From NCBI RefSeq assembly GCF_014203355.1, contig NZ_JACHIR010000001.1, positions 2,172,038 through 2,236,037 of the forward strand: DNA of 64,000 nucleotides, read 5' to 3'. The position numbers were made by a program, and so were the translations under genes. Under the pieces are notes generated by a model. The model saw only the letters and a program-made list of their open reading frames with translations, had not been told where the DNA came from and did no database searches. This document shows, piece after piece, positions 8,074 through 45,624 of this stretch (positions within the stretch are counted from its first letter, which is position 1; each line of letters starts with the position of its first letter). The stretch is from Kutzneria kofuensis (GTDB lineage: Bacteria; Actinomycetota; Actinomycetes; Mycobacteriales; Pseudonocardiaceae).

Positions 8074-8093
8074 GAGCACAGTTCACCCAATCG

Positions 8094-8167
8094 TCGGGGT
8101 GGCGGGATTTGAACCCACGGCCCCTCGCTCCCAAAGCGAGTGCGCTACCAAACTGCGCCACACCCCG
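8094..8167 (-). tRNA. tRNA-Pro (anticodon TGG)
   Basis: The minus strand folds as a 74-nt cloverleaf. The acceptor stem is CGGGGTG (8161-8167) with CACCCCG (8095-8101) and discriminator A. The anticodon loop TTTGGGA, with TGG, is flanked by CTCGC/GCGAG, and the T-arm contains GGTTCAAATCC. No CCA is encoded. It diverges from tRNA-Gly. Confidence 0.95.
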
Positions 8168-8221
8168 TTCGCGCCGTCTTGGCGATGGCGCGTGCATGAG
8201 AGTAGCGCGACCCGCTAAGCT

Positions 8222-8257
8222 CCCGCATGCACCCGGTCGATGTCGGGTGCATGCGGG
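8222..8257. repeat. 14-bp inverted repeat overlapping the tRNA-Gly 5' end
   Basis: CCCGCATGCACCCG (8222-8235) pairs perfectly with 8244-8257, leaving an 8-base loop. The right arm includes the first five bases of tRNA-Gly (8253-8257), so in a precursor this hairpin would compete with the acceptor stem. Confidence 0.8.
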
Positions 8258-8323
8258 TGTAGCTCAATGGCAGAGCCCCAGCCTTCCAAGCTGGTCATGC
8301 GGGTTCGATTCCCGTCACCCGCT
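8253..8323 (+). tRNA. tRNA-Gly (anticodon TCC)
   Basis: A 71-nt cloverleaf. The acceptor stem is GCGGGTG with CACCCGC (8316-8322) and discriminator T. The anticodon loop CTTCCAA, with TCC, lies between CCAGC and GCTGG, and the T-arm has GGTTCGATTCC. No CCA is encoded. Confidence 0.95.
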
Positions 8324-8369
8324 CTTCTTTTCTCTTCCACGCCGGCCGTCAGTGTGTCGAGCGCCACAG

Positions 8370-43444: not shown

Positions 43445-43930
43445 TCAGCGGCGCGGCGCCGGGCCCGCCTGGTCGGTCAGCATGCGCAGGCCGCTGACCA
43501 GGCCGCCGGCCAGGTTGCCCTCCTTGAAGGAGGCCACCATGCTCATCACGGCCAGCTTGCAGCCGCGGTCGGGCAGCCGGCGGTGCGACTCCTCGCCGGT
43601 CACGATCTCGACGGCGCGCTGCCCCGGCGACACGGCGATCAGCACCGCGTGTGTGGGCCGCGGGGTCTGCGCGTGCAGCTCCTCGGCGGCCTTGCGGGTG
43701 TCGTCACCGTCCAGCTCGCCCAGGTAGACGCTGAAGTCGAGGCCGGTCTCCCGGCTGGACAGGGTCAGCGCCTCGTCCAGCTGCGCCAGCTCGGAGGAAC
43801 GGAACGGCAGGGTCGGCGGCTTGGGCTTCTGCTCGGTGGCGACCGAGATCCGGCCGTCGGCCATCAGTGCCTCGCCGTAGCCGAGCTCGACGTCCTCGGC
43901 GTCCCGCTGCACGATCTCACCAGTTGCCAC
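43445..43930 (-). CDS. DUF5130-like protein (Rv2468c-like)
   Basis: A 161-residue conserved actinobacterial protein. Recognisable segments are LSSRETGLDFSVYLGELDGD, HAVLIAVSPGQRAVEIVTGE and a helical end LAVMSMVASFKEGNLAGGLV. The middle resembles TPM/YgcG-type domains. No signal peptide or transmembrane helix is seen. The start is a GTG at 43930, five bases past GGGGAGG; a GTG two codons earlier abuts that site. The start overlaps the end of the CtaJ-like gene upstream, so they are coupled. Confidence 0.8.
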   Translation of the reverse strand: MATGEIVQRDAEDVELGYGEALMADGRISVATEQKPKPPTLPFRSSELAQLDEALTLSSRETGLDFSVYLGELDGDDTRKAAEELHAQTPRPTHAVLIAVSPGQRAVEIVTGEESHRRLPDRGCKLAVMSMVASFKEGNLAGGLVSGLRMLTDQAGPAPRR

Positions 43931-44180
43931 GGGCACCTCCCCGTGCGGTCGGCGCGGGCTCGCCGGCCTCGCCCTGCTCCAGCGCGGTGTGCGCGGAGGG
44001 GGCGTGGGCGCCGACGCCCGCGGGGTTGGCGGTCCACCACACTGGCGCGTAACCCCACTCCTGGCCTGCCTGGTACCGGGGGGTACGCGCGAACTTAGGC
44101 CACAGCGTCAGCAACGCGATCACGCCGTACACGCACAGCGGGATCAGCGCGAAGACGAGGAGGGTGTCCACGACGTTCAC
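43917..44180 (-). CDS. ctaJ: Small membrane protein resembling cytochrome aa3 subunit CtaJ
   Basis: An 87-residue protein with one N-terminal helix (LLVFALIPLCVYGVIALLTL), a basic WPKFARTPRYQAGQEW segment and a polar tail. Between pepN and the HNH gene, mycobacteria encode, as I recall, a small protein described as an accessory subunit (CtaJ) of the bcc-aa3 supercomplex, and this gene's position and layout match. That identification rests on memory of synteny and general layout. It overlaps the following DUF5130-like gene by 14 bases. ATG at 44180. Confidence 0.65.
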   Translation of the reverse strand: MNVVDTLLVFALIPLCVYGVIALLTLWPKFARTPRYQAGQEWGYAPVWWTANPAGVGAHAPSAHTALEQGEAGEPAPTARGGARGNW

Positions 44181-44397
44181 GGGGACCTACGGTAGCCGAG
44201 CCCTCCGCACCGCGCGTCACCGGCCGTCCTGGTCTGGGGCGATGCCCACGCCCGAACGGGCAGGATCCGCGGCGAAGTGACCACACCGTTGCCGATGACA
44301 GGGCGTGAAAGTGATCATCGGCACGCACTCTTGTGGCCGAACGTGCTGCGCCGAACGGACCCGGGGTCAGCGACACGAATGCCGCCGGTTTGGCGGC

Positions 44398-44426
44398 TTG
44401 TCCTGACCGGCCAATCAAGATTAGCT
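44398..44426 (+). promoter_or_regulatory. Possible promoter for the GIRVN-repeat peptide gene
   Basis: TTGTCC (44398-44403) and TTAGCT (44421-44426), separated by 17 bases, resemble -35/-10 elements. They lie about 70 bases before the peptide start. This is a weak, pattern-based call. Confidence 0.3.
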
Positions 44427-44498
44427 TTCACCTATACGGGTCTTGCGGAGCAATGGCCTTGCCTGAAAGCCACCCCGAACCTCCCAGGAGGGCACGCC

Positions 44499-44768
44499 AT
44501 GTACACGCCGAACCTCCCCACCACGGTCGCGACTGTCACCCGATCGAGTGAAGAGATGCGTACCGTGCTCACGCTGGTGTCGGGCATCCGGGTGAACAAG
44601 TCCACCCTTGTCCACCGTGGCATTCGGGTGAATGGCCGCGACGGGATCCGCGTCAACCGCGAGGGCATCCGCGTGAACCGGGACGGGATCCGCGTCAACC
44701 GGGCCGCCGCCGACCGAGCGGGGATCCGGGTGAACCGGGACGGCATCCGGGTCAACCGCGCGGCCTGA
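44499..44768 (+). CDS. 89-residue peptide with seven GIRVN repeats
   Basis: This small protein belongs to no family I recognise. Residues 1-28 (MYTPNLPTTVATVTRSSEEM, then RTVLTLVS) are leader-like. From residue 29 to the end, GIRVN recurs seven times (29, 41, 49, 56, 63, 75, 82), mostly as GIRVNR(D/E) in 7-8 residue steps. There is no Cys, and almost no Ser or Thr in the repeats. AGGAGG lies 7 bases before the ATG, the best ribosome site in the region, and a 13-bp-stem terminator follows the stop by 12 bases. It is therefore a complete, isolated transcription unit. A multi-core peptide precursor or a repetitive structural protein are both possible. No maturation enzyme is adjacent, though a prolyl oligopeptidase is encoded 0.9 kb away. 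Confidence 0.8.
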   Translation: MYTPNLPTTVATVTRSSEEMRTVLTLVSGIRVNKSTLVHRGIRVNGRDGIRVNREGIRVNRDGIRVNRAAADRAGIRVNRDGIRVNRAA

Positions 44769-44780
44769 TCACAGACTTCC

Positions 44781-44824
44781 AACGAGTGGCGGCCCGGGTG
44801 GAAACGCCCGAGCCGCCACTCGTT
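44781..44824. terminator. Terminator after the GIRVN peptide gene
   Basis: A perfect 13-bp stem (44781-44793 with 44812-44824; arm AACGAGTGGCGGC) has an inner CGGG/CCCG pairing. It lies between the peptide gene and the convergent HNH gene and could serve both. Confidence 0.85.
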
Positions 44825-44862
44825 CGTCGAAGAACTGGTTTACCTGGACGAACCGCTCCGGC

Positions 44863-45546
44863 TCACGCCGCGGGCTCGCCCAGGTATGGCAGCCATTGGG
44901 GGTCGGCGTCGGCCACGCCCGCGAGCAGCCGCCAGTGCGGCCCACGCGGCGCGGTCGGCACGACCAACAGCCTCCATCCCAGTTCGGACAGCATCTTGTC
45001 GGCCTTGCGATGGTTGCACTTGGCACAGCAGGCCACGCAGTTGGTCCAGCTGTGGGCACCCCCGCGCGAGCGCGGCACGACGTGATCGATAGTCTCTGCC
45101 CGCCCGCCGCAGTACGCGCAGCGGTAGCGGTCCCGGTGCATCAGCCCGGCCCTGGTCAGCGGCACCCGTCCGCGGTAGGGGACCCGGACGTAGCTGGACA
45201 GCCGGATCACCGAGGGCACCACGACGCTGGCAGTGGAGGAATGCAGGATCAGACCGGCCGAGTCACCGTGCACGACCTCGGCCTTGCCACACACCACCAG
45301 CACCACGGCCCGCCGCAGCGGTAACGCCGTCAGCGGCTCGAACGTGGCGTTGAGCAGGAGCACCCGCCTTCGACCCCAACTCGGCCCTCCCGGCGCACCA
45401 CGCGCCCGGTCCTGGCCGACCCGGTCCGGATCCACGCTGGATACGTGGCCGCTGACCTGGGTCTGGGCAGGAATTTGAGACAGAGGGACCCGCGGCGCCA
45501 CTCCCGATCTGGGGGCGCCGATCGGAGTCGGTTGTCGGTCGGGCAC
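44863..45546 (-). CDS. HNH endonuclease (Rv2469c-like)
   Basis: A 227-residue protein with a C-terminal HNH domain. The zinc CxxC pairs are CAYCGG and CAKCNHRK, and the catalytic segment is TIDHVVPRSRGGAHSWTNCV. A central domain (VLLLNATFEPLTALPLRRAV) is typical of the widespread actinobacterial HNH proteins of unknown role. The GTG at 45546 has GGAGG 7 bases upstream; earlier frame sequence is poor. The first 50 residues look disordered. It diverges from the prolyl oligopeptidase gene, with a 14-bp palindrome between them. Confidence 0.88.
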   Translation of the reverse strand: MPDRQPTPIGAPRSGVAPRVPLSQIPAQTQVSGHVSSVDPDRVGQDRARGAPGGPSWGRRRVLLLNATFEPLTALPLRRAVVLVVCGKAEVVHGDSAGLILHSSTASVVVPSVIRLSSYVRVPYRGRVPLTRAGLMHRDRYRCAYCGGRAETIDHVVPRSRGGAHSWTNCVACCAKCNHRKADKMLSELGWRLLVVPTAPRGPHWRLLAGVADADPQWLPYLGEPAA

Positions 45547-45610
45547 GCGACCACCTCCACCGGTGCAGCCATAGTCGACCACACTTGACCCGTTCAACGC
45601 ACGTGTGATG

Positions 45611-45624
45611 CATGACATGTCATG
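45611..45624. promoter_or_regulatory. 14-bp perfect palindrome CATGACATGTCATG
   Basis: It is centred in the 152-base gap between divergent HNH and prolyl-oligopeptidase genes, 65 bases before the HNH start and 75 before the peptidase start. A regulator dimer could use it to control both. Confidence 0.5.

Follow-up and report, generated by a model that had tools for sequence, protein, structure and literature searches.

A family of pentapeptide-array proteins encoded beside an HNH gene in Kutzneria kofuensis and other Pseudonocardiaceae

In the 64,000-nucleotide stretch of the Kutzneria kofuensis genome analysed here (the window), a small gene on the forward strand encodes 89 residues with seven GIRVN units. 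This open reading frame, which had been predicted from the DNA of this Kutzneria genome, was confirmed from the sequence. Its units follow one another at spacings of seven residues (three times), twelve (twice) and eight (once). The features of the locus are listed below, where the locus counts refer to the relatives described further on.

43917..44180, minus strand: small predicted membrane-protein gene, divergent neighbour, no Pfam match
44398..44403, plus strand: -35 hexamer TTGTCC; all 65 loci have TTG upstream of the -10 hexamer, at 17 nt in 57 and at 18 nt in 8
44422..44427, plus strand: -10 hexamer TAGCTT; every one of 65 loci has TANNNT, with the CACC of the start-site element following after 0-3 nt
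44426..44446, plus strand: start-site element TTTCACCTRTACGGSYCTTGC, probably discriminator and predicted first transcribed bases; 15 of its 22 positions reach at least 1.8 bits in 65 loci that had been selected by a match of 17 or more of 22
44486..44491, plus strand: ribosome-binding site AGGAGG, read from the sequence; across 65 loci GGAGG is preferred from -12 to -8
44499..44768, plus strand: 89-residue GIRVN-array gene, based on sequence, relatives and codon-position data
44499..44582, plus strand: N-terminal segment of 28 residues, weakly constrained (pN/pS 0.76 in Kutzneria, 0.78 pooled)
44583..44756, plus strand: seven-core GIRVN array, its linkers variable; core differences at codon positions 1/2/3 of 0/0/0.457
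44781..44824, no strand assigned: strong inverted repeat that separates the convergent gene pair (-41.6 kcal/mol, z -7.73), with no T-run and not reported by a T-run scanner
44863..45618, minus strand: HNH-endonuclease-family gene (PF14279, PF01844), stable convergent neighbour, start codon uncertain

The five neighbours scanned in the window were the HNH gene, a DUF5130 gene, a prolyl oligopeptidase, an Rv2466c-like nitroreductase and one gene without a match. Neither a peptide-modifying or maturation enzyme nor an NLR was found among these five. The PADLOC defence models returned no family for the window protein and three orthologues. The HNH neighbour gave weak matches to 31 PADLOC models, and in the 25 of these 31 that were listed the match ran mainly through the HNH region. 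The membrane-protein gene adjoins a DUF5130 gene, which also has a TPM-domain match, in family loci and in some loci beyond. Elsewhere in the window (8093-8324), a tRNA-Pro and a tRNA-Gly gene lie close together on opposite strands.

The gene reads as a complete expressed unit, as had been proposed, with its own putative promoter, ribosome-binding site and 3' hairpin. The ATG start is supported by the AGGAGG and by a distance from the conserved start-site element that is much the same in most array genes. An in-frame GTG upstream is not needed as a start, since the frame is closed 11-25 codons 5' of the ATG in three orthologous loci (L005, L007 and L011). In the window promoter 18 nt separate TTGTCC from TAGCTT, and by inspection the hexamers match the E. 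coli consensus at 4 of 6 and 3 of 6 places. A TTG-N17/18-TANNNT pair was present in all 65 loci with the start-site element, compared with 1 of 1320 random upstream positions. A consensus scanner reported no promoter or terminator at the window gene. The inverted repeat is likely the shared transcript end of both convergent genes. The strong terminator of the original prediction stands as a very strong hairpin, yet the hairpin has no T-run and the scanner was silent.

A search of 60 relatives matched 14 genomes, strongly only in Kutzneria. When the weak matches were read, several of them held arrays of other, equally uniform units. The later loci were picked through the neighbouring HNH gene, which is found in 244 of 249 family genomes, and this avoided a choice by repeat. 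The resulting set of 70 loci contained 60 taken by HNH place (one of them, L027, from an already-matched genome) and ten from the search of relatives. An array reading frame convergent with the HNH gene was observed in 66 of the 70 and was absent from L031 (genus g3; such labels are those of the search tool) and L068-L070 (genus g64). The 66 array genes were recognised by the motif pattern and an in-frame stop, so that their open frame is partly given by construction. In the first set the array was present in 56 of 60 HNH-chosen loci, and all of the four added later (L107-L110) had it as well. It was also present in all six loci chosen by the upstream element (L111-L116); the GVRIS units number only two in L111 and three in L112. 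Of the 64 loci chosen by HNH only, 60 thus have the array gene at the conserved place; over all loci the count is 76 of 80. At the HNH locus it was found in 37 of 39 Pseudonocardiaceae genera inspected, these being the genera of a total of 46 other than g4, g5, g28, g58, g59, g62 and g68.

Homologues with conserved repeats, for which the original prediction had suggested a search, are therefore widespread. The same counts overturn its picture of an isolated, inserted gene, since the array gene regularly belongs to this neighbourhood. We found no sign of a mobile origin when one array (L023) was searched against plasmids and another (L063) against phages. In all ten family loci with the array that were tested, tblastn matched the membrane-protein gene close to the HNH gene. 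In one Kutzneria locus (L002, genome G005) the HNH orthologue was matched only in part, which suggests a frameshift, a truncation or an assembly error.

Upstream of 65 of the 66 array genes we observed a 22-bp element, TTTTCACCTGTACGGGTCTTGC, with 17-22 matches. It sits directly after TANNNT, and no other stretch of the region compared over these 65 loci is as conserved. Its distance to the ATG is 47-54 nt in 58 of the 65 genes and 31-37 nt in seven, and three of the short-distance genes (L040, L041 and L046) have a second in-frame ATG at 52 nt. The single array gene without the element (L006, genome G028) has a TAGCTT upstream, a long divergent N-terminus and an exact repeat of 86 nt. With at most two mismatches the element was matched in 182 of 249 Pseudonocardiaceae genomes, a count that includes a few two-mismatch matches that are likely background (in g3 and g4, for example). 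A class sample gave matches in 11 of 394 genomes, nine of them outside the family and each of these nine with two mismatches.

When up to three mismatches were allowed in 12 genomes, 11 of them matched at 13 sites, two genomes having a second site with three mismatches; with the pattern reversed as a control there were 12 hits. An operator of a regulon is unlikely, since there is about one true site per genome, both in the 12 genomes and, among the sites listed, in the 249. An extensively complementary trans-acting sRNA was not indicated either, as no sufficiently close second copy of the element was present on either strand in the 12 genomes. Folding of 16 of the 5' leaders gave two pairs, with no covariation and no consensus structure, and Rfam returned nothing near its gathering level in 44150-44900. 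A start-site element that is near-invariant across the family and yet occurs about once per genome is a second, regulatory puzzle.

The array unit stays near [GS]-[VIT]-R-[VI]-x throughout, and all copies in a gene change together by lineage. The prevailing unit is GTRVT in 30 of the 66 genes, SVRIT in 12, GVRIS in 9, GIRVN in 5, GVRIH in 3, GVRVN and GTRIT in 2 each, and GIRVT, GVRIE and GVRVT in one each. The copy number ranges from 3 to 51, with three genes having only 3 cores in 49-63 residues. The spacing between units runs from 6 to 40 residues. At least three different values occur in 33 of 66 genes, and the spacing is perfectly regular in 15. Around SVRIT, D precedes in 148 of 180 units and A follows in 129 of 180. 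We counted 1087 exact five-residue stretches against 26 with one mismatch, where any single mismatch was allowed.

Averaged within the 66 genes, the cores differ per site by 0.040, 0.014 and 0.468 at codon positions 1, 2 and 3, and in every one of the 66 the differences at position 3 exceed those at positions 1 and 2 together. The pN/pS was 0.05 for the cores, somewhat underestimated in pN because cores were picked by pattern, 0.61 for linkers of one to six residues and 0.78 for the N-terminal leaders. The leader value ranged from 0.29 to 1.40 over seven groups, seven of eight groups having given comparable pairs. The repeats are thus the constrained part of the protein, as the original prediction implied. 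It called the N-terminus leader-like; a leader of the RiPP kind was not supported, because this segment evolves almost freely, in Kutzneria as in the pooled set. Its statement that the repeats lack Cys, Ser and Thr applies to GIRVN itself; the linker between units 1 and 2, NKSTLVHR, contains Ser and Thr, and most orthologues have Thr or Ser in their units.

Such uniformity could in principle come from DNA homogenisation. Gene conversion would homogenise synonymous sites as well; therefore we conclude that selection acts on each protein unit. Duplication does occur, since 20 of 64 genes contain an exact repeat longer than in any of 30 synonymous shuffles. The other 44, including the window gene, contain none (two short genes were left out of this test). 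In a quickly built tree of 69 HNH rows, with weak supports (5 of 63 branches starred) and without L002 because of its short HNH match, the unit changed 13 times when 'none' was counted as a state. The minimum possible was 10, the shuffled mean was 36.5 and none of 200 shuffles was as low; without the 'none' rows there were 11 changes. From the sequences, no neutral process that would change the units in unison without homogenising the DNA is apparent to us.

Outside the family we found no array in eight loci of family f8, inferred to be Mycobacteriaceae. In the two f8 loci where the membrane gene was matched, the HNH and membrane-gene matches lie 41 and 60 bp apart. Seven further families of the order (f2, f5, f9, f10, f13, f15 and f16), represented by 16 loci, likewise showed no array, the hits of the repeat scan there being judged compositional by eye. 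Searched across the class, a GTRVG array gave matches in 37 of 345 genomes, mostly through low complexity. When 30 loci from this search were scanned for frames shorter than 450 residues with at least four units, an array was present only in L134, a family member.

Genus g33 (family f4), taken to be Nakamurella, has a sister form. Arrays lie beside the HNH gene in 8 of the 10 genomes listed with the HNH place (G690, G685, G053, G038, G705, G672, which is partly masked, G664 and G679); the other two, G695 and G700 (N. multipartita), have none there. Two further genomes, G710 and G730, were found by array search and also have arrays beside the HNH gene. The Nakamurella unit is G-x-R-[VIFM]-G or A-V-R-V-G, repeated mostly every six residues, and the array ends at or near the C-terminus. 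The upstream element is absent. Over 13 Nakamurella genes the core differences are 0, 0 and 0.257 at the three codon positions. In one gene (L122) the six cores share a single DNA sequence, with no synonymous difference, and in L124 one degenerate unit falls outside the pattern. Tandem array genes occur as two GSRIG genes in L117 (G690) and four in L124 (G664), where the four small paralogous AVRVG-array genes end 286, 485, 684 and 926 nt from the HNH match. Place and motif, rather than alignment, mark these arrays as a sister form, which may be homologous or convergent.

The window protein had no credible match in Pfam or NCBIfam (best E 0.68 and 0.62), and a sequence search of solved structures gave a best E of 0.025. 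Two of ten orthologues had one Pfam match each above cut-off, to PF00132 and to the VgrG-type DUF2345. PF00132 scored 31 bits in L027 (cut-off 27) and 26.6 in L030 and was unlisted for the other eight orthologues and the window protein. The predicted structure of the window protein was poor (pLDDT 54.7, pTM 0.27). For a 12-unit K. buriramensis orthologue the model placed strands on the whole or part of 9 of 12 units, with strands over at least four residues in eight of them, where the pLDDT was 53-73 (pTM 0.39). A search of the open-access literature, which leaves preprints and most subscription papers outside its scope, gave nothing relevant to the array motifs among the matches listed. To the best of these profile-library and literature searches, the array family looks undescribed.

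On sequence grounds, this is a protein-coding family in which selection is focused on the cores, copy number and spacing are free, and the promoter and start-site element are conserved. Our preferred reading, which we hold tentatively, is that the array is a multivalent linear-motif protein whose many identical pentapeptides are each recognised by a peptide-binding site. Each copy of the unit [GS]-[VIT]-R-[VI]-[TSNHE], GIRVN in Kutzneria, would be a separate ligand. Most simply, a bound unit would be an extended strand whose invariant Arg points to one side and whose positions 2 and 4 point to the opposite one. With its valency set by copy number, the chain would then serve as a hub or sponge, and it would be produced from a dedicated, tightly conserved promoter of the housekeeping type. 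We infer the binding of the cores to a partner, the strand geometry and the hub role. The convergent HNH protein is the sole partner candidate that location suggests, and it is a weak one. The purity of the cores next to free linkers and leaders, the like pattern in Nakamurella, the irregular spacing, the rarity of unit changes and the poor model of the window protein are consistent with a hub. The original prediction had also offered nucleic-acid binding. As far as this would work through bulk charge it is not supported, since the net charge of the orthologues runs from -10 to +69. Bulk polyanion binding was rejected on this range, which favours specific recognition over bulk charge.

Several observations count against a hub. 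The cores are 98% pure, although selection on a single copy should be weak when up to 51 are redundant. The regular spacing in 15 of 66 genes and the flank preference around SVRIT point the same way, and the strands of the K. buriramensis model would favour a beta assembly. A self-pairing beta fibre, meander or solenoid is nearly as likely as the multivalent array. Here each core would be a short strand that pairs with its own copies, within or between chains. Only the likeness of the units would then matter, which would keep them identical within a gene and let them drift between lineages. The model with strands on most units argues for this, and together with the comparison with solved folds it made a fibre more probable and a hub less so. 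However, AlphaFold 2 is reported, in the available excerpt of PMC11795689, to give unrealistic beta-solenoids for perfect repeats. No known structural repeat family, an outcome raised in the original prediction, was matched convincingly, yet the weak matches and this second model keep a beta-structural repeat as the main rival of the multivalent array.

It is rather improbable that the protein is a multi-core precursor, cut into many copies of one signal or modified peptide. The many exact copies after a short N-terminus, the change of unit in unison by lineage and the tandem paralogues in Nakamurella would fit it. However, the leader is almost unconstrained, none of the five scanned neighbours is a maturation enzyme, no signal peptide was seen by eye and one unit persists throughout whole genera among those sampled. 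Some residues flanking the cores are favoured, but no cleavage residue around them is invariant. The nearby prolyl oligopeptidase, which had been proposed as a processing partner, was rejected because Pro is absent from the window array and found in only 15 of 66 orthologous arrays.

A DNA- or RNA-level repeat, such as a binding array or structural RNA that is open by chance, is very improbable. It would account for the tandem repeat and the conserved upstream element, but it is already contradicted by the predominance of third-position differences in 66 of 66 genes, and neither Rfam nor the folded 5' leaders offered an RNA structure. Least probable of all is a functionless minisatellite frame maintained by slippage, to which the range of copy number, the duplications in 20 of 64 genes and the DNA-identical cores of L122 might point, but which is already contradicted by large synonymous differences under near-exact protein identity and by the conserved promoter and ribosome site.

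Up to 51 units per gene keep their five residues despite scrambled synonymous sites, which means that something must read every unit. Once found, this reader would be a new peptide-recognition system in Kutzneria and its relatives, or the array would be a new self-assembling repeat. The natural series GTRVT, SVRIT, GVRIS, GIRVN, GVRIH and GVRIE makes the question testable by swapping units. If true, a hub or a homotypic polymer would represent concerted protein evolution in bacteria without DNA homogenisation.

Known systems resemble the array in part. The Nakamurella arrays (RGGRFG and RGSRIG, for example) resemble RG/RGG-type low-complexity segments, whereas the Pseudonocardiaceae units form no RG repeats and their net charge can be negative. 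The left-handed beta-helix hexapeptide (PF00132) and the VgrG-type DUF2345 share short periodic V/I units, but the regular six-residue period of the hexapeptide repeat is not kept, the spacing being irregular in most array genes and 7, 8 and 12 in the window. The CPAP G-box/TCP10 domain (4ld3, 4bxq) and phage spike beta structures (3pqh) showed 6-8% identity, with Z values typical of comparisons without a clear match. Multi-core RiPP precursors also have a short N-terminus followed by repeated identical segments; the array gene differs in having no conserved leader and no maturation enzyme among the five neighbours. Bacterial amyloid signalling sequences (BASS) occur on NLR and effector proteins of adjacent genes, whereas here the array is nearly the whole protein. 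In style, AfsS (AfsR2) from Streptomyces coelicolor comes nearest, likewise a small actinobacterial protein made mostly of short tandem repeats. In the available excerpt of PMC2267785 it has 63 residues with three 12-residue repeats thought to be crucial and is described as sigma-like; compared by size and repeat layout alone, its three repeats stand against 3-51 five-residue cores here. We rate the mode of evolution of the arrays as outside the kinds compared here. There is about an even chance, in our judgement, that they form a new class of bacterial protein, hub or homotypic strand polymer, which consists almost entirely of exact copies of one pentapeptide, with selection maintaining every copy and whole lineages replacing the unit.
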